In this document: one piece after another, positions 48,190 to 60,852 of the stretch
Numbering within the stretch: position 1 is the stretch's first letter
How the letters are laid out: each line of letters starts with the position of its first letter
Virus record (IMG/VR): IMGVR_UViG_3300047445_000314
Coordinates: 35,207-99,206 of that record
DNA length: 64,000 nucleotides
Direction: 5' to 3' (one strand)
Origin: a virus
The notes under the pieces: model-generated
Seen by the model: only the letters and a program-made list of their open reading frames with translations
Told to the model about the DNA's origin: nothing
The model's database searches: none
Translations under genes and position numbers: made by a program

Positions 48190-48217
48190 AAAGCCTCCTC
48201 ACACAGGGGGCTTTTTT
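48190..48217 (+). terminator. Intrinsic terminator after late genes
   Basis: AAAGCCTCCT pairs with AGGGGGCTTT (one G-U pair) around a CACAC loop, followed by a T-run. Confidence 0.85.
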
Positions 48218-48230
48218 ACGTCCGTATATT

Positions 48231-48281
48231 TTGTACCACATGGCCCGTGGCGTATCGGGTAGCAGTACATTATGGTACAAT
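48231..48281 (+). promoter_or_regulatory. Promoter with TTGTACC...TGGTACAAT elements
   Basis: TTGTACC at 48231-48237 and GGTACAA at 48274-48280 are inverted arms, as at 1886-1915; TACAAT at 48276-48281 with a preceding TG is an extended -10. It starts transcription toward the AAA+ ATPase gene, and palindromic copy 18 lies 10 bases downstream. Confidence 0.5.
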
Positions 48282-48309: not shown

Positions 48310-48373
48310 TAATTCCAATACGGATTGGCTCCTGCCGCGACGACAAATCGCACCTATATAAAGGTTGAACGTT

Positions 48374-50047
48374 ATGATCCTTACGACCACCCAAGACAAC
48401 TCGGAACACGCGCTCATGTCGGAGCTGTACAAGATGGCCGACGCCGGGGCCTCCGTGCTCCAGGTCCGCACTCGCGAAGTGATGCGCGGGGCGATGACAC
48501 TGCGCCGCAACATCCTCCTGTCCGAACACAGCGAATACCGCGAATGGGACGCCATCAATGGCTTCCGCAGCTTCACCCGCGAGGATTACGTCAGCCATAT
48601 CAAGGCGGGCGACCAGAAGGACTTCATGAGCGCGCTGGAGGAGCCGCTGGGCGAATTGCGCAACACCTCCTCGTCGATTAACAGCAAGCGCGATACGGTT
48701 CATTATTACATATTCGTTGACCCGCATCCCTATCTGGCCAACAACCCGGTCGCCACCGAGCTGGTCCAGCAATACGCGGCGATGCTGCCCTCCACCAATG
48801 TTTGCATCATCTTTGTCACCCCCGACGTCACGCTGGATGGCATCACGGCAGGCACCTTGCTCATCTCCGACATGAGCACGCCCAGCGCGGAGGAGTTGCA
48901 GGACGTCCTGGTCAAGATCATCGAAAAGGCGGAGGGCGATTTCAAGGACGGCAGCGAACTGTCCGATGAGGATATCCGCCGCCTGTCCGTTCTCGGGCTG
49001 GGGCTGTCCCTCTACGAGTTCGAGACCTACGCGGCGATTGCCATCATTGACGCGAATCAGAAGGACCATGACGCGATCACTTTTGAGGTGATGTCGGATG
49101 GGATTGCCCTCGGCAAGACGGCGGTGGTCAAGCAGTCCGATATCCTGGAGCTTATGGCTGGCGCGAACATGGCCGACGTCGGCGGCATGAACCGCCTCAA
49201 GGACTGGGTCGCCTCGCGCGCCGATTGCTACTCGGACGAGGCCAAGGCCTTCGGTATCGAGCCACCCAAGGGCGCGGTCGTGGTAGGCGTACCTGGCGGC
49301 GGCAAGTCGCTGGTTGCCAGGGCTACCGCCTCCGAGCTTGGCGTGCCATTAGTCCGCATGGATTTTTCCCGCATCTTCTCCAAGTACATCGGCGATAGCG
49401 AGAGCCGCATCCGCTCCGCGCTGAAGATGGTCGAGCAGATGGCTCCCTGCGTCCTCTTCCTCGATGAGCTGGACAAGGGCCTTGGCGGCAGCGCCAACGG
49501 CGGCGGCGATTCCGGCACCTCCTCGCGCGTGCTTGGCTCCTTCCTCTCCTGGCTACAGGATAACACCGCGCCGGTCTTTGTCATGGTCACCGCCAATCGC
49601 GTCGACGGCCTGCCTCCGGAACTCCTGCGGCGCGGCCGGTTCGATCAAATCTTCTCGGTCGGCCTACCCACCGACAAGGAACGGCTGGAAGTACTGGATA
49701 TCCACCTGCGCAAGCGTAATAAGACTACGACGTTCAGCAAGGAAGACCTGTTCGAGTTTACGGCGGCCTCGCGCGACTATGTCCCTGCCGAGATCGAATC
49801 GTCGGTCAAGGATGCGCTGATCATGGCCTTTAACGAAAAAACCACCGTCAAGATGGCGCATATCTTGCGCTCCCTGAAAGACATGGTGCCGATGTCGAAG
49901 TCGAACGCGGATGCCATTGCCAAGATCGTGGCATGGGCGCGGGATAACGCCACCCCGGTTAACTACGATGCGACCACGGACGCACCACTTGTCAACCTCG
50001 GACTGACGCGGCGCGTGGCAACCAACCGCACCCGCCCGACGCGGTAA
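48374..50047 (+). CDS. Ycf46-like AAA+ ATPase (557 aa)
   Basis: I choose ATG 48374, with AAAGG at 48360-48364, over TTG 48365. The N-terminal about 230 residues resemble Ycf46-type proteins (Val-Arg-Thr-Arg-Glu-Val-Met-Arg, then Glu-Trp-Asp-Ala). The AAA core has Walker A Gly-Val-Pro-Gly-Gly-Gly-Lys-Ser near residue 305, Walker B Cys-Val-Leu-Phe-Leu-Asp-Glu-Leu-Asp near 358, a sensor-1 Asn in Thr-Ala-Asn-Arg, and Arg-Arg-Gly-Arg-Phe-Asp near 418, the FtsH/Cdc48-class second region of homology. It should be an active hexameric ATPase. The C-terminus ends with a short Thr/Arg/Pro tail. It heads a block containing DUF1257 and DUF2997 genes. Confidence 0.8.
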   Translation: MILTTTQDNSEHALMSELYKMADAGASVLQVRTREVMRGAMTLRRNILLSEHSEYREWDAINGFRSFTREDYVSHIKAGDQKDFMSALEEPLGELRNTSSSINSKRDTVHYYIFVDPHPYLANNPVATELVQQYAAMLPSTNVCIIFVTPDVTLDGITAGTLLISDMSTPSAEELQDVLVKIIEKAEGDFKDGSELSDEDIRRLSVLGLGLSLYEFETYAAIAIIDANQKDHDAITFEVMSDGIALGKTAVVKQSDILELMAGANMADVGGMNRLKDWVASRADCYSDEAKAFGIEPPKGAVVVGVPGGGKSLVARATASELGVPLVRMDFSRIFSKYIGDSESRIRSALKMVEQMAPCVLFLDELDKGLGGSANGGGDSGTSSRVLGSFLSWLQDNTAPVFVMVTANRVDGLPPELLRRGRFDQIFSVGLPTDKERLEVLDIHLRKRNKTTTFSKEDLFEFTAASRDYVPAEIESSVKDALIMAFNEKTTVKMAHILRSLKDMVPMSKSNADAIAKIVAWARDNATPVNYDATTDAPLVNLGLTRRVATNRTRPTR

Positions 50048-50085
50048 AATAGAACGAAATAATCAGGAGAACCCAGGAGCAGACT

Positions 50086-50712
50086 ATGACAGACATCAGC
50101 AACCAGCGCATCCGCCTTGGCTTTGGCAAGGTAAATCTCAAGACCAGCGCCATGACTCTCGCCGCCCTGCGCCTGCGCCCGCCGTTCCTGAAGGATTCCG
50201 CCATCTCCTCCGGCCGCCGCGAGACGGGCAGCATGACCAGCCATCCGGTGTCGCGCATCCCGCAGGTACACGGCAGCATGTACCAGGACTATGTCACGCA
50301 CCAGAACGGCACCATCGTCATGTTGCAGGCATCCTGGACGCGCGGCGGGGTCAGGATACGCGACGGCGCGGTCCTGCTCCGCCTACGCCGAGAAGCCGCC
50401 TTGCTCAACGTCACGGCCATGCTACCGCACAGCCTGGAGTCGCAGATCGGCGACCGCATGTCGGTCTTCGAGGGGCGGGCCGACCTGCTCTCGCCGGACG
50501 AGGCGGCCATGTACAAGGTCGGTATCCCGCGCCGTTTCGTCGACAACTTCTTTGACCTGGAAGAAGTCGAAGAGTGCTTCATCGTTACGCAGGTCAGCGC
50601 AGCCATCGCCGATCGGCCTGAAGTCTCCCTGGTTGCCACCGCCGAGGGCGTGGTCGTCCGGGAAGTGCAAGCAGCCCCCACCCGCAGAATGAATTTAAAG
50701 AAAAGGACATAA
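50086..50712 (+). CDS. Hypothetical protein (208 aa)
   Basis: Start 50086, 38 bases after the ATPase. The N-terminus is basic (Lys-Val-Asn-Leu-Lys-Thr, Arg-Leu-Arg), the middle has Arg-Gly-Gly-Val-Arg-Ile-Arg and a Leu-Leu-Arg-Leu-Arg-Arg-Glu helix, and the C-terminus is beta/helical with many acidic residues. No family recognised. Its position suggests a partner of the AAA+ ATPase. Confidence 0.55.
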   Translation: MTDISNQRIRLGFGKVNLKTSAMTLAALRLRPPFLKDSAISSGRRETGSMTSHPVSRIPQVHGSMYQDYVTHQNGTIVMLQASWTRGGVRIRDGAVLLRLRREAALLNVTAMLPHSLESQIGDRMSVFEGRADLLSPDEAAMYKVGIPRRFVDNFFDLEEVEECFIVTQVSAAIADRPEVSLVATAEGVVVREVQAAPTRRMNLKKRT

Positions 50713-50713
50713 C

Positions 50714-51067
50714 ATGAGCGCTCTTAGCATACAGCCTATGACCGACCTGGAGAGGCACAACGTTTTCCAGACCAATCTGCTCCTTGCGGTAGGGCTACGC
50801 GATACGTTGGTCGATGACCTGATAGGCAGAGCGGGCGTGCCTTTCGCCTACCTCAGAATTCGCGCCATCGTCATCGGCCAGTACTTCGGCGAATTGCATG
50901 TCGATTTTGAAAAGGAAGACGTCCTGTACTACATCAAGATCGATGTCGCGACGATGGAGTTGAAGTTCTACCGTTACAACGGCGCACACCGTGAGCGCTG
51001 GTCGGTGCGCGTCAAGGTACTCGGGCTGTGCACCACCATTGACCGCGTCCTGTCCTACGTTAAGTAG
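50714..51067 (+). CDS. Hypothetical protein (117 aa)
   Basis: Start 50714, one base after the previous stop. A small mixed alpha/beta protein with Tyr-Leu-Arg-Ile-Arg-Ala-Ile-Val-Ile-Gly-Gln-Tyr-Phe and Leu-Tyr-Tyr-Ile-Lys-Ile. No recognised domain; in the same transcription unit as the ATPase. Confidence 0.55.
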   Translation: MSALSIQPMTDLERHNVFQTNLLLAVGLRDTLVDDLIGRAGVPFAYLRIRAIVIGQYFGELHVDFEKEDVLYYIKIDVATMELKFYRYNGAHRERWSVRVKVLGLCTTIDRVLSYVK

Positions 51068-51083
51068 TAGTCAATCCGCGTCA

Positions 51084-51101
51084 TTTGCAATCAATTTCAA
51101 A
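51084..51101 (-). repeat. 18-bp palindromic site, copy 19
   Basis: TTTGCAATCAATTTCAAA, the reverse complement of the consensus, merging with the ribosome site AAAGGGAGG and ending 13 bases before the ATG at 51115. Confidence 0.9.
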
Positions 51102-51114
51102 GGGAGGAAGTATC

Positions 51115-51330
51115 ATGGAAATCGAACTGAAATTCGCCGACTCAAAAATGCTCAACGCGCTGGGTTACGACGAAGACACACAGACCATGGCGGTACGCTT
51201 CAAGAATGGTGACGTATGGCACTATTCGCCAGTACCTGCGGAGGCCTTCGAGACCATCCGCGACGCCCATTCGGTCGGGCAGGCGTTCCTGGCGATCCGC
51301 GACCAGTACCTGGCTACCAAGCAGGAATAA
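51115..51330 (+). CDS. KTSC-domain protein (71 aa)
   Basis: Start 51115 after GGGAGGAAG. The whole protein matches the KTSC domain: Leu-Gly-Tyr-Asp-Glu-Asp-Thr-Gln-Thr-Met-Ala-Val-Arg-Phe-Lys-Asn-Gly, Trp-His-Tyr-Ser-Pro-Val-Pro, and Ser-Val-Gly-Gln-Ala-Phe. KTSC is a small domain found alone or fused in bacterial and phage proteins; its binding partner is not settled. It lies between the AAA+ ATPase and DUF1257 genes. Confidence 0.75.
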   Translation: MEIELKFADSKMLNALGYDEDTQTMAVRFKNGDVWHYSPVPAEAFETIRDAHSVGQAFLAIRDQYLATKQE

Positions 51331-51332
51331 TC

Positions 51333-51674
51333 ATGGCTACCTATAAACAGGAACGACTAGACGCATTCATCCTGCGCGCCGGGTACCCCTACGGGTGGAA
51401 CAGCCTTGTGGTATGGGCACGCAAGATGGCCGAGCAAGCAGTCGCAGAACAGGATGGCGGCCCACCCTACGGCCCGATCGACTACACCCTGAAAGCAGGC
51501 GATATCGTGTACAACCAATCCTGGGGCGACGGACAGATGTCGCTGGAGATCGTGGACGTTAATTGGGCGTTAAAGGCCGCAGCAGTCCGGCTCGCTCCGC
51601 GCGGCGGCATCGTCGTGTGGCCAGTCGGTAATCTGTCTCGTCAGATATTCGTTACGCACAGCGGACAGGGATAG
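51333..51674 (+). CDS. Hypothetical protein (113 aa)
   Basis: Start 51333, two bases after the KTSC stop. An N-terminal helical half and a beta-rich C-terminus (Gly-Asp-Ile-Val-Tyr-Asn-Gln-Ser-Trp, Gly-Gly-Ile-Val-Val-Trp-Pro-Val-Gly) that may form a small barrel. Function unknown. It ends before a promoter and the DUF1257 gene. Confidence 0.55.
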   Translation: MATYKQERLDAFILRAGYPYGWNSLVVWARKMAEQAVAEQDGGPPYGPIDYTLKAGDIVYNQSWGDGQMSLEIVDVNWALKAAAVRLAPRGGIVVWPVGNLSRQIFVTHSGQG

Positions 51675-51711
51675 CCCGCATACTGAAGGCGCGGCCGGTC
51701 CACCAACACGC

Positions 51712-51717
51712 TATAAT
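51712..51717 (+). promoter_or_regulatory. TATAAT -10 upstream of DUF1257 gene
   Basis: A consensus TATAAT, with no clear -35, in the gap 51675-51752. Confidence 0.45.
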
Positions 51718-51752
51718 AAGTCATCACCACCTCACATATATAGGAGCAACCC

Positions 51753-52196
51753 ATGTCACATACAACGAGCATAAAGGGTATCCAGATCATGGATATCGTC
51801 GCACTGGAGGCCGCCGTCAAGGAACTGGCCGCGTCGGGTTTGAAAATCAGCCTGGTCAAGGACGCCACCCCGCGCGCCTTCTACAGCAATCAAGCCGGGA
51901 TGGGAAAAGCCGACTATGTCGTCAAGCTGCTCGACGCCAGTTACGATATCGGCCTGTACAAGCAGGAGGACGGCTCGTACCAGCCGCGCACCGACTTCTT
52001 CGGTGGCAGCGTCGTCAAGGTCCTGGGCGCGCAGGCTTCCAAGAAAGAAAATGCTGAGCAAGCCAAGCTCGGCAAGCTGATGCAGATGTATGGCATCCAT
52101 GCCGCCACCATGAAGGCCAAGAAACAGGGCCTGACGGTACGCCGCGTCACCGGCAACGACGGCGTGGTCAAGTTGACGGTAGCCGGGTTCGCATAA
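51753..52196 (+). CDS. DUF1257 / Ycf35-like protein (147 aa)
   Basis: Start 51753 after TAGGAGC. The pattern is that of DUF1257: Met-Ser-His at the start, Leu-Glu-Ala-Ala-Val-Lys-Glu-Leu, Tyr-Asp-Ile-Gly-Leu-Tyr, Asp-Gly-Ser-Tyr, Asp-Phe-Phe-Gly, and a C-terminal Met-Tyr-Gly-Ile-His-Ala-Ala and Gly-Leu-Thr-Val. DUF1257 (Ycf35) is known in cyanobacteria and some phages, commonly beside DUF2997 and a Ycf46-like ATPase as here. Biochemical function is not established. Confidence 0.8.
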   Translation: MSHTTSIKGIQIMDIVALEAAVKELAASGLKISLVKDATPRAFYSNQAGMGKADYVVKLLDASYDIGLYKQEDGSYQPRTDFFGGSVVKVLGAQASKKENAEQAKLGKLMQMYGIHAATMKAKKQGLTVRRVTGNDGVVKLTVAGFA

Positions 52197-52207
52197 GGAG
52201 CAACATC

Positions 52208-52399
52208 ATGAAGACAGTTGAGATCACGATCCAACCAGACGGCGAAGTCAAAGTCGACGCCATTGGCTTTGCCGGGGTCGGCTGCAAGAAAGCCACCACC
52301 GAATTGATTGAAGTCCTGGCGGGCGGCGGGTCGACCGACACCAAGCCCAAACCGGATTTCTACGCCACCAACCCGGTCGGTACCAAGATCAAGGGATAG
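52208..52399 (+). CDS. DUF2997 protein (63 aa)
   Basis: Start 52208, 11 bases after the DUF1257 stop. Ile-Thr-Ile-Gln-Pro-Asp-Gly-Glu-Val-Lys-Val, Gly-Phe-Ala-Gly-Val-Gly-Cys and Pro-Asp-Phe-Tyr match DUF2997, a small domain that often accompanies DUF1257. The Cys after Gly-Val-Gly is the most characteristic residue. Probably forms a complex with DUF1257 and the AAA+ ATPase (inference). Confidence 0.75.
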   Translation: MKTVEITIQPDGEVKVDAIGFAGVGCKKATTELIEVLAGGGSTDTKPKPDFYATNPVGTKIKG

Positions 52400-52401
52400 C
52401 C

Positions 52402-52761
52402 ATGACCAGTCACGAAATCAGTGAGCGCACCCGCGCCGCCCTGAACCGTCTCTGCAAGTGGCGGTCGGTATTTGCCGGGTGGCAATTGGGTACCCGCGAC
52501 CAGGAAGACCCGGAATGTCAGGCGGTCAAGGACCACCGCGAATTATCCATGCTTCTGCGCGCGGAGGTCAGCGCGCTGGTCGCCACCCTGGTCCAGAAGG
52601 GTGTGTTCACGGTGGACGAGTTCAACACCAATCTGGAAAAAGAGGCAGTCACCATGGATGTGGAAAACGAACAGCGCTTCCCCGGCTTCAGTTCAATCGC
52701 GCAAGGCATATCCATGTCGATGCCGGAGGCGGCAGAGACGATGAAGAACTGGCCCAAGTAG
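52402..52761 (+). CDS. Conserved hypothetical protein (119 aa)
   Basis: Start 52402. A helical protein with Leu-Cys-Lys-Trp-Arg-Ser-Val-Phe-Ala-Gly-Trp, Leu-Leu-Arg-Ala-Glu-Val, Lys-Gly-Val-Phe-Thr and Arg-Phe-Pro-Gly-Phe, which I have seen as a conserved pattern in phages. No function known. Two bases separate it from the DUF2997 gene, so it probably belongs to the same unit. Confidence 0.6.
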   Translation: MTSHEISERTRAALNRLCKWRSVFAGWQLGTRDQEDPECQAVKDHRELSMLLRAEVSALVATLVQKGVFTVDEFNTNLEKEAVTMDVENEQRFPGFSSIAQGISMSMPEAAETMKNWPK

Positions 52762-52779: not shown

Positions 52780-53154
52780 ATGGCGCGACGCTTACGGCTA
52801 GGACGGGGTACGGAAAAGGATAGGACGCTTATAGACCCTCCCGCGCCGAAGGAACCACCTGAATGGCCGCACCCGATACCTCCCGACCCTCCCGATGCAC
52901 GGCGGCGGCATCAATGGCCGCCTGAACGTATAGCCACTCCCGCTGGTAGCTGCTTGCATGGCGAGGTGGCTATAGAGCGGAGATATGTGGAGTATGCAGA
53001 GTCTGGTCAGGTAACCCAGCGCATAGTGACCGGCCAGGAGATCGTCATCACCTTGCGCGGGGAGGGTAATCATATCGCCATCCTGGAAGATGCCTTGCGC
53101 CAGCTTCGTGATAACCCGGACAGTTTTAATTTCACGGTACGCGCATCCTTATAG
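52780..53154 (+). CDS. Hypothetical protein (124 aa)
   Basis: Start 52780 after AGGAGG. A basic, Pro-rich N-terminal half (Pro-Pro-Asp-Pro-Pro) and a C-terminal mixed domain (Ile-Val-Ile-Thr-Leu-Arg-Gly-Glu-Gly-Asn-His-Ile). No family recognised. Confidence 0.55.
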   Translation: MARRLRLGRGTEKDRTLIDPPAPKEPPEWPHPIPPDPPDARRRHQWPPERIATPAGSCLHGEVAIERRYVEYAESGQVTQRIVTGQEIVITLRGEGNHIAILEDALRQLRDNPDSFNFTVRASL

Positions 53155-53435: not shown

Positions 53436-53780
53436 ATGAAGACACGTTTTACAACAATCGACTTCGCGGAGGACGGCACAGTGGAGGCCATGAACCGGGA
53501 CGAATTCAACATAGGCTTCCTGGGCAAGCAGAGCATCCAACGCGCCAGCGAGATCAAATTCAACGAGGCAACCCAAAGCTGGAATATTTGCTTGCCGGAT
53601 GACGATGACCGATGCTGGGTAGCAATACCGGAAGCTACCGGCTTTGCCTCGTATAACGTGGCGCGCGATGTCGAGGTGTTCTGGTTGGAGACCGCGCGCC
53701 GAGTCGGCGTCAACCCTACCAGTATGGAGGGTATCCGGATACTCCAGGCAGCCAAGGACCTGAGCCGCGTCCTGGCATAG
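53436..53780 (+). CDS. Hypothetical protein (114 aa)
   Basis: Start 53436 after GGAGAG. A small mixed protein with Asn-Ile-Cys-Leu-Pro-Asp-Asp-Asp-Asp-Arg-Cys and a C-terminal helix. Last gene of the accessory block; a terminator follows. Function unknown. Confidence 0.55.
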   Translation: MKTRFTTIDFAEDGTVEAMNRDEFNIGFLGKQSIQRASEIKFNEATQSWNICLPDDDDRCWVAIPEATGFASYNVARDVEVFWLETARRVGVNPTSMEGIRILQAAKDLSRVLA

Positions 53781-53815: not shown

Positions 53816-53843
53816 GAGCCGATCCGCGTGGTCGGCCTTTTTA
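53816..53843 (+). terminator. Intrinsic terminator
   Basis: GCCGA and TCGGC (plus neighbouring pairs) form a stem, followed by CCTTTTTATT. Confidence 0.7.
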
Positions 53844-57837: not shown

Positions 57838-58064
57838 TGGATATCTACAGCGATCTGCGCATTCCGTTCAGCACCGCCGTATGGTTGCGCACCCACAAAT
57901 TTAGTCCTCTCGCCGTGGCCGTATCGCGCCGTTTGAAGTTGATTGCAAATGCTCGGGTAGAGATAGCATCGCTTGAATGCCAGCTCGATATTCACGACAA
58001 AGAATTGCAGAAGCTACTGGACGAAGCAAACACAAAGCTGGAGGAGTCGGCCAATGGCTATTAA
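57837..58064 (+). CDS. Hypothetical coiled-coil protein (75 aa)
   Basis: TAATG overlap with the previous gene. The C-terminal half is a coiled coil (Leu-Gln-Lys-Leu-Leu-Asp-Glu-Ala-Asn). Palindromic copy 22 encodes Leu-Lys-Leu-Ile-Ala-Asn in the middle. It overlaps the DNA polymerase start by 11 bases. Confidence 0.6.
   Translation: MDIYSDLRIPFSTAVWLRTHKFSPLAVAVSRRLKLIANARVEIASLECQLDIHDKELQKLLDEANTKLEESANGY
57932..57949 (+). repeat. 18-bp palindromic site, copy 22 (in gene)
   Basis: TTTGAAGTTGATTGCAAA, in the frame Leu-Lys-Leu-Ile-Ala-Asn. Confidence 0.85.
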
Positions 58065-60852
58065 CGAAAAGCTCTGCGACGGCTGCCCGATCCAAGGGGA
58101 ACATCAACCCGCCAACGCGGTCGGGCCGGAGAACGCCAAGTTCCTGGTCGTGGTCGATGTCCCCAGCGCGGCGGGTGCCAAAGAGAAACGATTACTTGCC
58201 CCCGGCACCTTGAAGGTGTTCGCGGAGGAGATGCAGGAGATCGGCTTCGGCAAGGATGACTTCCGTTTCTTCCCGTCCTGCCTGTGCCCGTACAACCCGG
58301 ACTCGATGACCAACAAGACGAAGAAGGCGATCCACAAACACTGCCGCCAGCACTTCGTCGACGAGGTATTCACCAATCACCCGGACGCCCTGATCCCGCT
58401 CGGCGCGGCAGCAGCTACCCATGCGTTCGGGCGCGACACCAAGATCACCAAGGTGCGCGGCCTGGGCAACCAAAGCGAAGAGTTCCATATACCCATCTTC
58501 CCGCTGCTCTCCCCGGCGCAGGTGGTGTTCTATCCACAGAACCGCCCCATCTTCCGCGCCGACGTGCAATCCTTCGCGCGCTTTTTTGACCACGGCTATG
58601 ATGCCGCGTCCGGCAGCGTCGAGCATGGCGAGTACACCTTTGTCGACGACCTGCAATTCCTGATCGACATGGACCCGGAACTGCTCGCGTTCGATACGGA
58701 GAACACCGGCCTGCGCTGGTACGCCCAAGGTTGTGATGTCCGCACCTACGACGCGGCCCGCCATAAGGGCAACCAGGAATTCAAACCACGCGCACAGATA
58801 CTCACCATGCAGTTTTGTGTGGAGCCGGGGAAGGCCTATGTTCTGAAATGGGACCATCCAGAAGACCCGATCCCCGAGGCGCGCAAGGCCAAGCTGCGCA
58901 ACCAGATACGCCAGTTGCTGTGCAAGCCGGAGCGTATCATCGTTGGTCAGAATCTGAAATACGACGCGGTGTATCTATGGAAGACGGAAGGCATCCGCAT
59001 CCGTGTCGGAGGCGACACCCTCATGCTGGCGACCTTGCTGGACGAGAACGCCATGGAGCGCAACCTGGACGTGCTTACCAAAATCCATTTGCCAGCCTAC
59101 GCTGGCTACGCCGACTTGTTCAACGCCACCTACGACAAGAGCCGCATGTGGGAAGTCCCACTGCACGAGATACGTGGCTACGGCGGCGGTGACGCCGATG
59201 TCTGCTACCAGATATATGAAATCCTGGAGGCGCAGGTCATGCAGGACGAGCGGCTGTGGGCGCACTACCTGCGTGTTTCGTTACCCGGCCTGAACGGCTT
59301 TGTCGGCCTGGAGGCGCGCGGCATGCACGTCGATACCGGTGGCGCGATGGAAGAGTTCCGGCAATACATGGTGACCGAGGTCGAACGGCAGCGGGTATCT
59401 ATCGTCGCGCAGATACCGCGCCAGATCAAGCTGGATCACATCAACCTGAAAGCGTTCAAGGGCAAGCCGGAAAAAGCCCTGGCATTGTCGCGGCCAGGGC
59501 TTTTAAAAGACATTCTATTTACTCATCCGAATGGCTTTAAATTAAAACCCAAGGTCTTTACTAAGACCACTACTAAGCTACCGGACCACCTGAAAGAACC
59601 TAGTGTCTCCTCCAAGGACCATCTGCCGTTTTTCTTTGATACCTGTCCGTTCACCTTCGAGCTGGCCGAATATGTCAAAAATGAACGGCTGCTCACCACC
59701 AACGTGGTCGGCTTTAAGAACAAGTACGTGGTCGACGACATGGTCAGGCCTACGTATGGACTGTCAAAAGCTGTTACTGGGCGCACTAACAGCGACGATC
59801 CGAACGGGCAAAACTATCCCAAGCGCGGCAAGATGGCCAAGACCTACGGCAAGCAGTTCGTGGCTCCGCCCGGCTACTTCATGATCGCGCCCGACTTGTC
59901 ACAAGCCGAGCTGCGCATCGCCGCGTCGATGGCCAACGAAAAGACCATGATCGAGATTTACAAGGCGGGCGGCGACATCCACCGCACCACCGCCGCCGTC
60001 GTGATGTCGATCGCCGATGCCGCCTTCGCGCGGCTGATGGAAGCGGTACAGAAGGATGCCCGCCAGAAGGCCAAGGCGGTGAACTTCGGCTTCCTGTTCG
60101 GCATGTGGTGGAAGAAGTTTATCGTGTACGCCAAGACCCAGTACGGCGTGGAGTTCACCGACAAGGAAGCTAAGGCTGTCCGCGAGAACTTCTTCAAAAA
60201 GTACAAAGGTCTGGAGCCATGGCACAACCGGGTCAAGGACTTCGCGTTGCAACATGGCTACGTGCGCTCCTATACCGGCCGCATCCGTCACCTGCCCATG
60301 GTCGACTCGTCCGAGGACTACATCGTGCAAGAGGCACTGCGCCAGGCCATCAACAGCCCGGTCCAGGAATGCGCCTCCTCGCTGGGCGTGATGGCGATCG
60401 GCCGCATGAACGAAGAAGTCGACTCACGCTACCTGCCTATCGTCGGCTTTATCCATGACTCGATCATCGGTTACGTGCGCAAGGAATATCTGGACTGGGG
60501 TTTGAAAACCATCAAGGGCTATATGGAGTCGAACCCGATGAAGGAATGGTTCAACAGCGAGATCAAGGTGCCGATTGTCGCCGACGCCTCCTTCGGGTTA
60601 AACTTCGGGGAGTTGATCGAATGCCCCGGCTTCAGGCTTGATGAACCCTACAATTTTCAGGGTTTAGTGGACAAGGAAGGCAGACCACTCGCGCAGGTGC
60701 CAGTACAGCGCACGCCACCGAATAACGGCAGGTTGACGAGATCAGTCTATACACTTGATACCGACCTGGAAGAGGAAATGACCGACATCATGACCACCGC
60801 GCTGGCGCGTTCGCGCCGGGTGCCACGGTCGTCACCGAGGAGAGCAGCATGA
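58054..60852 (+). CDS. DNA polymerase: UDG-like, 3'-5' exonuclease and PolA domains (932 aa)
   Basis: Start 58054 after GGAGGAG. N-terminal about 170 residues resemble family 4 uracil-DNA glycosylase (Cys-Asp-Gly-Cys, Ser-Cys-Leu-Cys, and a further Cys). The exonuclease has Phe-Asp-Thr-Glu-Asn-Thr near residue 212, Asn-Leu-Lys-Tyr-Asp near 300 and Asp-x-x-x-Tyr near 380. The PolA domain has motif A Pro-Asp-Leu-Ser-Gln-Ala-Glu-Leu-Arg near 612, motif B Arg-Gln-Lys-Ala-Lys-Ala-Val-Asn-Phe-Gly near 670, and motif C His-Asp-Ser near 799. It replicates the phage genome; a UDG-like domain on PolA is known in SPO1-type phages. Confidence 0.85.
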   Translation: MAINEKLCDGCPIQGEHQPANAVGPENAKFLVVVDVPSAAGAKEKRLLAPGTLKVFAEEMQEIGFGKDDFRFFPSCLCPYNPDSMTNKTKKAIHKHCRQHFVDEVFTNHPDALIPLGAAAATHAFGRDTKITKVRGLGNQSEEFHIPIFPLLSPAQVVFYPQNRPIFRADVQSFARFFDHGYDAASGSVEHGEYTFVDDLQFLIDMDPELLAFDTENTGLRWYAQGCDVRTYDAARHKGNQEFKPRAQILTMQFCVEPGKAYVLKWDHPEDPIPEARKAKLRNQIRQLLCKPERIIVGQNLKYDAVYLWKTEGIRIRVGGDTLMLATLLDENAMERNLDVLTKIHLPAYAGYADLFNATYDKSRMWEVPLHEIRGYGGGDADVCYQIYEILEAQVMQDERLWAHYLRVSLPGLNGFVGLEARGMHVDTGGAMEEFRQYMVTEVERQRVSIVAQIPRQIKLDHINLKAFKGKPEKALALSRPGLLKDILFTHPNGFKLKPKVFTKTTTKLPDHLKEPSVSSKDHLPFFFDTCPFTFELAEYVKNERLLTTNVVGFKNKYVVDDMVRPTYGLSKAVTGRTNSDDPNGQNYPKRGKMAKTYGKQFVAPPGYFMIAPDLSQAELRIAASMANEKTMIEIYKAGGDIHRTTAAVVMSIADAAFARLMEAVQKDARQKAKAVNFGFLFGMWWKKFIVYAKTQYGVEFTDKEAKAVRENFFKKYKGLEPWHNRVKDFALQHGYVRSYTGRIRHLPMVDSSEDYIVQEALRQAINSPVQECASSLGVMAIGRMNEEVDSRYLPIVGFIHDSIIGYVRKEYLDWGLKTIKGYMESNPMKEWFNSEIKVPIVADASFGLNFGELIECPGFRLDEPYNFQGLVDKEGRPLAQVPVQRTPPNNGRLTRSVYTLDTDLEEEMTDIMTTALARSRRVPRSSPRRAA

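Follow-up and report, generated by a model that had tools for sequence, protein, structure and literature searches.

In a 64,000-nucleotide stretch of viral DNA (hereafter the window; bases 35,207-99,206 of the 99,206-base IMG/VR virus record IMGVR_UViG_3300047445_000314), we analysed a block of genes that includes a Ycf46-like AAA+ ATPase, a DUF1257 (Ycf35-like) protein and a DUF2997 protein. We conclude that these three core proteins very probably act together as one portable functional module, as their genes travel together in cells, plasmids and viruses, which argues for a real functional unit. An initial annotation of this DNA had proposed a phage system composed of the ATPase, a KTSC-domain protein, DUF1257 and DUF2997, to be recognised by co-occurrence across related phages. 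All four genes are present with Pfam support, and co-occurrence of the core is seen in phages, in a set of 80 virus contigs, in IncA/IncC plasmids and in cellular genomes. A literature search limited to open papers, in which absence is not proof, retrieved no description of an ATPase-DUF1257-DUF2997 system. The core genes are:

48374..50047, + strand: Ycf46-like AAA+ ATPase, 557 amino acids, core member (Pfam AAA, 1.3e-31; PHROG 8638, 5.6e-148 over residues 8-534)
51753..52196, + strand: DUF1257 (Ycf35-like) protein, 147 amino acids, core member (Pfam PF06868, 1.6e-6, 28.8 bits against a cut-off of 22.2)
52208..52399, + strand: DUF2997 protein, 63 amino acids, core member (Pfam PF11211, 5.8e-11, 42.5 bits against a cut-off of 24.1)

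Features of the core proteins

The ATPase, which starts at an ATG with an alternative TTG at 48365, carries every element that defines classic-clade AAA+ proteins, namely Walker A (GVPGGGKS, residue 305), Walker B (VLFLDE, 360), sensor 1 (TAN, 406) and the arginines of the second region of homology (arginine fingers, RRGRFD, 419). The intact Walker and arginine-finger motifs claimed for it in the initial annotation were therefore all located, and the key residues are invariant across a nine-sequence alignment. A tyrosine-containing, pore-loop-like motif (KYIGDSE) lies at residue 337. By sequence, the AAA domain has Cdc48/VCP-like relatives in the PDB, and it shares the Walker motifs, arginine fingers and pore-loop-like motif of the Cdc48/VCP and Vps4-like AAA+ remodellers. 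The window protein differs from them in that it has one recognisable AAA domain and scores 116 bits against the 803-bit cut-off of the CDC48 subfamily. With cyanobacterial ATPases adjoining DUF1257 (presumed, not annotated, to be Ycf46), it would share the C-terminal classic AAA domain: identity is about 35% across residues 103-528, and the first ~100 residues are unaligned in this comparison. PHROG 8638, which covers almost the whole protein, is named only as a family of unknown function. The closest database phages by ATPase belong to the Pseudomonas SM1/PaMx31 group (~47% identity).

DUF1257 and DUF2997 are each encoded once in the 99-kb record. The window DUF1257 is 55% identical to its SM1 counterpart and has a confident AlphaFold model (predicted local distance difference test, pLDDT, 93.8); a fold search of the PDB with this model returned nothing at E<=0.001, and a search of a viral library returned a single clear match, a 147-amino-acid protein 40% identical to it. 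In SM1 itself, the annotated start of the DUF1257 gene (gp029; L002:11226-11606) seems to lie too far downstream, as the frame is open from 11163 and tblastn aligns full DUF1257 from residue 1 at this locus. In DUF2997, Cys26 is invariant (86 of 86 aligned sequences, recovered by a profile that includes this cysteine) and is the sole cysteine in 69 of the 86, including the window protein; Gly12 and Gly23 are near-invariant in the same alignment. The DUF2997 model is modest (pLDDT 70) and shows a beta-beta-alpha arrangement with Cys26 near the start of the helix; a fold search with this modest model gave no match.

Recurrence in viruses, plasmids and cells

Two further genes of the window, orf208 and orf114, are conserved with the core in related phages. 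The order ATPase - orf208 - DUF1257 - DUF2997 - orf114 is kept in phages SM1, RHph_I4, L338C, HJ05, JP1 and RcDurkin, which infect five host genera (Pseudomonas, Rhizobium, Aeromonas, Agrobacterium and Rhodobacter). In all six, the cassette lies between the lysis and DnaB/PolA genes, with extra genes inserted in some. To gauge the association more broadly, virus contigs were scanned with the ATPase, yielding 80 loci, and GTDB genomes were scanned with a four-row ATPase alignment, yielding another 80. With phage-only profiles built from seven phage sequences and a neighbour range of 10 kb, 41 of 80 virus loci and 35 of 80 genome loci had DUF1257 and/or DUF2997 on the same strand as the ATPase; neither set gave a copy on the other strand within this range. 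With iterated profiles, which inflate E-values, and counting only loci with full flanks, a partner was found in 38 of 59 virus loci and 30 of 45 genome loci. The gene trees of ATPase, DUF1257 and DUF2997 are also correlated (Mantel r 0.51-0.60 in viruses and 0.75-0.83 in genomes; 0 of 999 permutations), in part through shared descent of the carriers. Among module neighbours in other viruses (loci L024-L078), the unknown-function family DUF3150 accounts for 7 of 116; a search of this virus record gave no DUF3150 match, nor did the control genomes of that search give one.

In the two plasmids examined, one IncA and one IncC (L091:7380-9540 and L172:6577-9165), genes for an AAA ATPase, a DUF1257-like protein and DUF2997 follow each other in the same order as in the phage core; in contrast to the phage cassette, the ATPase has 487 amino acids and no orf208 was found. 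The IncA DUF2997 passes Pfam, and tblastn with it returned 586 plasmid records, mostly conjugative and nearly all at 95-99% identity. A counterpart of orf114 on the IncA plasmid, suspected by eye, was rejected (hhalign probability 0.6%). In the IncC papers checked, we found no role for this block. A separate 109-kb "plasmid" record, Rhizobium bangladeshense p7 (L090, NZ_CP071625.1), holds the complete cassette along with phage genes for tail and lysis proteins, and is probably a phage or phage-plasmid.

For the reverse test, we searched an even sample of genomes from five phyla for DUF2997. Few Pseudomonadota (2/299), Actinomycetota (2/150) or Bacillota (2/200) genomes encode it, each of these counts including the sample's centre genome; it occurs in 8 of 101 Chloroflexota and 34 of 59 Cyanobacteriota genomes. 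Outside the DUF2997-DUF1257 cluster of oxygenic cyanobacteria, the DNA fetched around DUF2997 mostly includes the ATPase gene. Chloroflexota loci L205-L211, actinobacterial L214 and pseudomonadotal L213 combine DUF2997 with the ATPase and a DUF1257-like gene, and the ATPase is present in all seven Chloroflexota loci where the fetched DNA continues far beyond the pair in the direction of the ATPase. Chloroflexota loci L216 and L217 have DUF1257-DUF2997 and no ATPase on the fetched stretch, and Bacillota L212 shows neither ATPase nor DUF1257. In an Anaerolineae locus (L104:5846-7477), an HSP70-like gene follows the module. The published cyanobacterial cluster consists of DUF2997, ycf35 and fed7, a ferredoxin gene (PMC4284462). 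As in the phages, DUF1257 adjoins DUF2997 there, in agreement with our sampled genomes, and the cyanobacterial DUF1257 matches the same Pfam model; the phage cassette, however, includes the ATPase and has no ferredoxin, as no protein of the window block gave a ferredoxin-type Pfam match above the cut-off.

Several observations weigh against a single three-protein machine. Most sampled oxygenic cyanobacteria have DUF2997-DUF1257 without an ATPase within 10 kb, so the pair may also act without the ATPase; the Ycf46-DUF1257-DUF2997 association that the initial annotation gave for cyanobacteria thus holds for the DUF2997-DUF1257(-ferredoxin) cluster, but usually not for the ATPase in oxygenic species. 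Even with iterated profiles, 34 of the 80 genome ATPase loci have no partner, some of them being short contigs. DUF1257 in Actinobacteria was detected by the iterated profile only, with no Pfam match, and the IncA DUF1257-like gene fails Pfam and was likewise detected only by the iterated profile. The contribution of shared descent to the tree correlations and the profile-based recovery behind the cysteine count count on the same side, as does the pore-loop aromatic Tyr338, which is not kept in every phage homologue. Finally, the complex, its assembly and its activity are what we infer from sequence.

Possible mechanism and alternative explanations

We propose as the likeliest mechanism, and with moderate confidence, that the ATPase is an AAA+ remodelling machine served by two dedicated partners, DUF1257 and DUF2997. 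The ATPase, with a Cdc48/Vps4-like C-terminal domain and a weakly conserved N-terminal region, would form a classic-clade AAA+ ring whose ATP turnover drives the pulling or remodelling of a protein, possibly in a host or phage assembly. DUF1257 and DUF2997 would assist it rather than act as independent enzymes, with DUF1257 as a structured scaffold and the single invariant cysteine of DUF2997 as a reactive or attachment point. In the SM1-like lineage, the core, joined by orf208 and orf114, has become a fixed cassette flanked by the lysis genes and the replication genes.

The cellular partner genes would also fit a different chemistry. An NrdG-like radical SAM gene (Fer4_12) is present in 24 of the 30 full-flank genome loci with a partner; Fer4_12 has ten members in the neighbour pool and also occurs in independently found Chloroflexota loci. 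Together with the cyanobacterial DUF2997-ycf35-fed7 cluster (PMC4284462) and the invariance of the DUF2997 cysteine, this is consistent with a radical or redox module. DUF2997 would be the substrate or carrier, its cysteine modified or used by an iron-sulfur partner, either the NrdG-like radical SAM protein or, in cyanobacteria, a ferredoxin. DUF1257 would present DUF2997 and the ATPase would load or release it, while phages and plasmids would borrow the partner from the host. We consider this rather unlikely. Fer4_12 was found neither in this virus record nor in the loci from the phage database, those on plasmids or the four-gene operons of Verrucomicrobiota described below, and the radical SAM partner is therefore optional.

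Six cellular loci (L132, L154, L156, L158, L159 and L163; for example L154:2860-12996) contain a candidate defence-like operon, carried by Bacteroidales, Neptunomonas, Methanococcoides, Bacillus tianshenii, a spirochaete and another Bacteroidota genome, thus by Bacteroidota, Gammaproteobacteria, Bacillota, Spirochaetes and an archaeon. It begins with the ATPase and continues with a protein of ~1,040-1,160 amino acids, two large proteins, DUF2997 and a distant DUF1257-like protein. The ~1,040-1,160-amino-acid protein was checked in L154 and L158 and is a UPF1-like helicase resembling Mokosh MkoA in both; one of the large proteins in L154 has a very weak PLD-like match. Five of the six operons have an NrdG-like radical SAM gene next, and PADLOC candidate genes lie upstream of the operon in L158 and L163. 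These settings, the presence of the module on IncA/IncC plasmids and in many viruses, and a weak score of the AAA domain to the anti-phage ATPase IetA would fit a conflict module, that is, a defence, superinfection-exclusion or counter-defence device. We find this improbable: in isolated phages the cassette keeps one site, next to the replication genes, and is not part of a variable accessory region, and the window block contains no toxin, nuclease or protease family. The IetA match is confined to the AAA domain (65 bits against the NCBIfam cut-off of 510), and no peptidase family that could stand for the subtilisin-like protease partner of IetAS was found among the block proteins. No helicase family was found among them either, and hence no adjoining UPF1-like superfamily 1 helicase as in Mokosh; the cyanobacterial copies seen lay outside defence-type settings.

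The position of the cassette would fit a link to replication. Its 3' neighbours encode a relative of SM1 gp034 (461 amino acids), then a DnaB helicase and then DNA polymerase A, in an order identical to that of SM1, and the site upstream of DnaB and PolA is fixed in the window, the six phage-database loci and most of the IMG/VR loci L010-L022. A replication-linked remodeller that aids loading or turnover of the downstream-encoded DnaB/PolA replisome in the SM1-like lineage could account for this arrangement, and we judge it similarly doubtful. DnaB is present in the fetched DNA of 20 of 53 partner-containing virus loci, essentially the SM1-like lineage, which argues against a replication-specific function; the IncA/IncC and cellular copies are located elsewhere, and shared descent alone can give a fixed order. 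The window polymerase (57973-60852) carries an N-terminal uracil-DNA-glycosylase-like segment (4.7e-5, just under the cut-off), and the SM1 polymerase has the same annotation.

Extent of the cassette in the window

Besides the core, the window block contains the following features:

48195..48210, + strand: weak terminator-like stem with T-run, upstream of the ATPase (pattern scan, 5 pairs)
50086..50712, + strand: orf208, fast-evolving, accompanies the cassette in SM1-like phages only
50714..51067, + strand: orf117, non-conserved, no homologue in related loci
51115..51330, + strand: KTSC-domain protein, 71 amino acids, non-conserved (Pfam KTSC, 7e-15)
51333..51674, + strand: orf113, non-conserved, no homologue in related loci
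52402..52761, + strand: orf119, non-conserved, no homologue in related loci
52780..53154, + strand: orf124, non-conserved, no homologue in related loci
53436..53780, + strand: orf114, fifth member of the phage cassette, with syntenic homologues in the same phages as orf208
53818..53836, + strand: terminator-like stem with T-run, 3' of orf114 (pattern scan, 7-bp stem)

The block genes are co-directional and tightly packed, with a ribosome-binding-like run upstream of nearly all. Syntenic homologues of orf208 occur in the six phages named above and in IMG/VR loci L010-L022, at 32-34% identity to SM1 and 15-20% to the other homologues. Homologues of orf114 are also found in other viruses and in Verrucomicrobiota (L099, L121, L134 and L157), where DUF1257, DUF2997, an orf114-like gene and the ATPase form a compact operon in that order, so orf114 is not phage-only. 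The block therefore needs redrawing. The initial annotation had set it at 48374-52399 and had included the KTSC gene and open reading frames at 50086, 50714, 51333 and 52402; the ATPase, DUF1257, DUF2997 and the frame at 50086 (orf208) are conserved, but the KTSC gene and the other three frames are not, and orf114, which lies beyond those coordinates, belongs as well. KTSC, orf117, orf113, orf119 and orf124 were rejected as module parts, with 0 homologues across 170 related loci, and we read them as probable lineage-specific insertions. A similar KTSC protein is encoded, for the most part, by database phages other than those with the cassette. A chance neighbourhood of unrelated genes holds for these five and is refuted for the core, where conserved synteny, strand and tree correlation leave it a negligible probability.

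The initial annotation also had the block bounded by a terminator-promoter pair and a terminator. Stems do exist at 48195-48210 and 53818-53836, but terminator-like sites in the region number 11 against 9.5 +/- 3.5 in shuffles, that is, near chance, and the promoter scan made no call at 48276, where TGGTACAAT (extended -10-like) is present by eye. Searches of the window for transfer RNA and Rfam families gave no match.

Implications

In the open literature, as far as it could be consulted, we found no function for DUF1257 or DUF2997; the ycf46 literature consists largely of plastid-genome surveys, and the passages found of the RcDurkin paper do not discuss the cassette. Our analysis indicates that protein families to which no function is assigned, including two long-listed plastid open reading frames, very likely form one module in phages, IncA/IncC resistance plasmids, bacteria and archaea. 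Two features make this module accessible: (i) isolated phages that carry the cassette allow genetics, namely SM1/PaMx31 in Pseudomonas aeruginosa, RcDurkin in Rhodobacter capsulatus and L338C in Rhizobium; and (ii) the invariant single cysteine of DUF2997 provides one specific residue to mutate. More speculatively, and with a low probability in our view, the module may represent a new and very widespread class of cysteine-dependent AAA+ machines. DUF2997 would be a carrier or tag with a single cysteine, on which DUF1257 and an ATP-driven ring act, and the machine would be coupled to a radical SAM protein in many cells, plugged into defence-like operons in some lineages, and taken over by phages and IncA/IncC plasmids. 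If true, such a class would also account for the plastid genes ycf35 and ycf46, which are unassigned.

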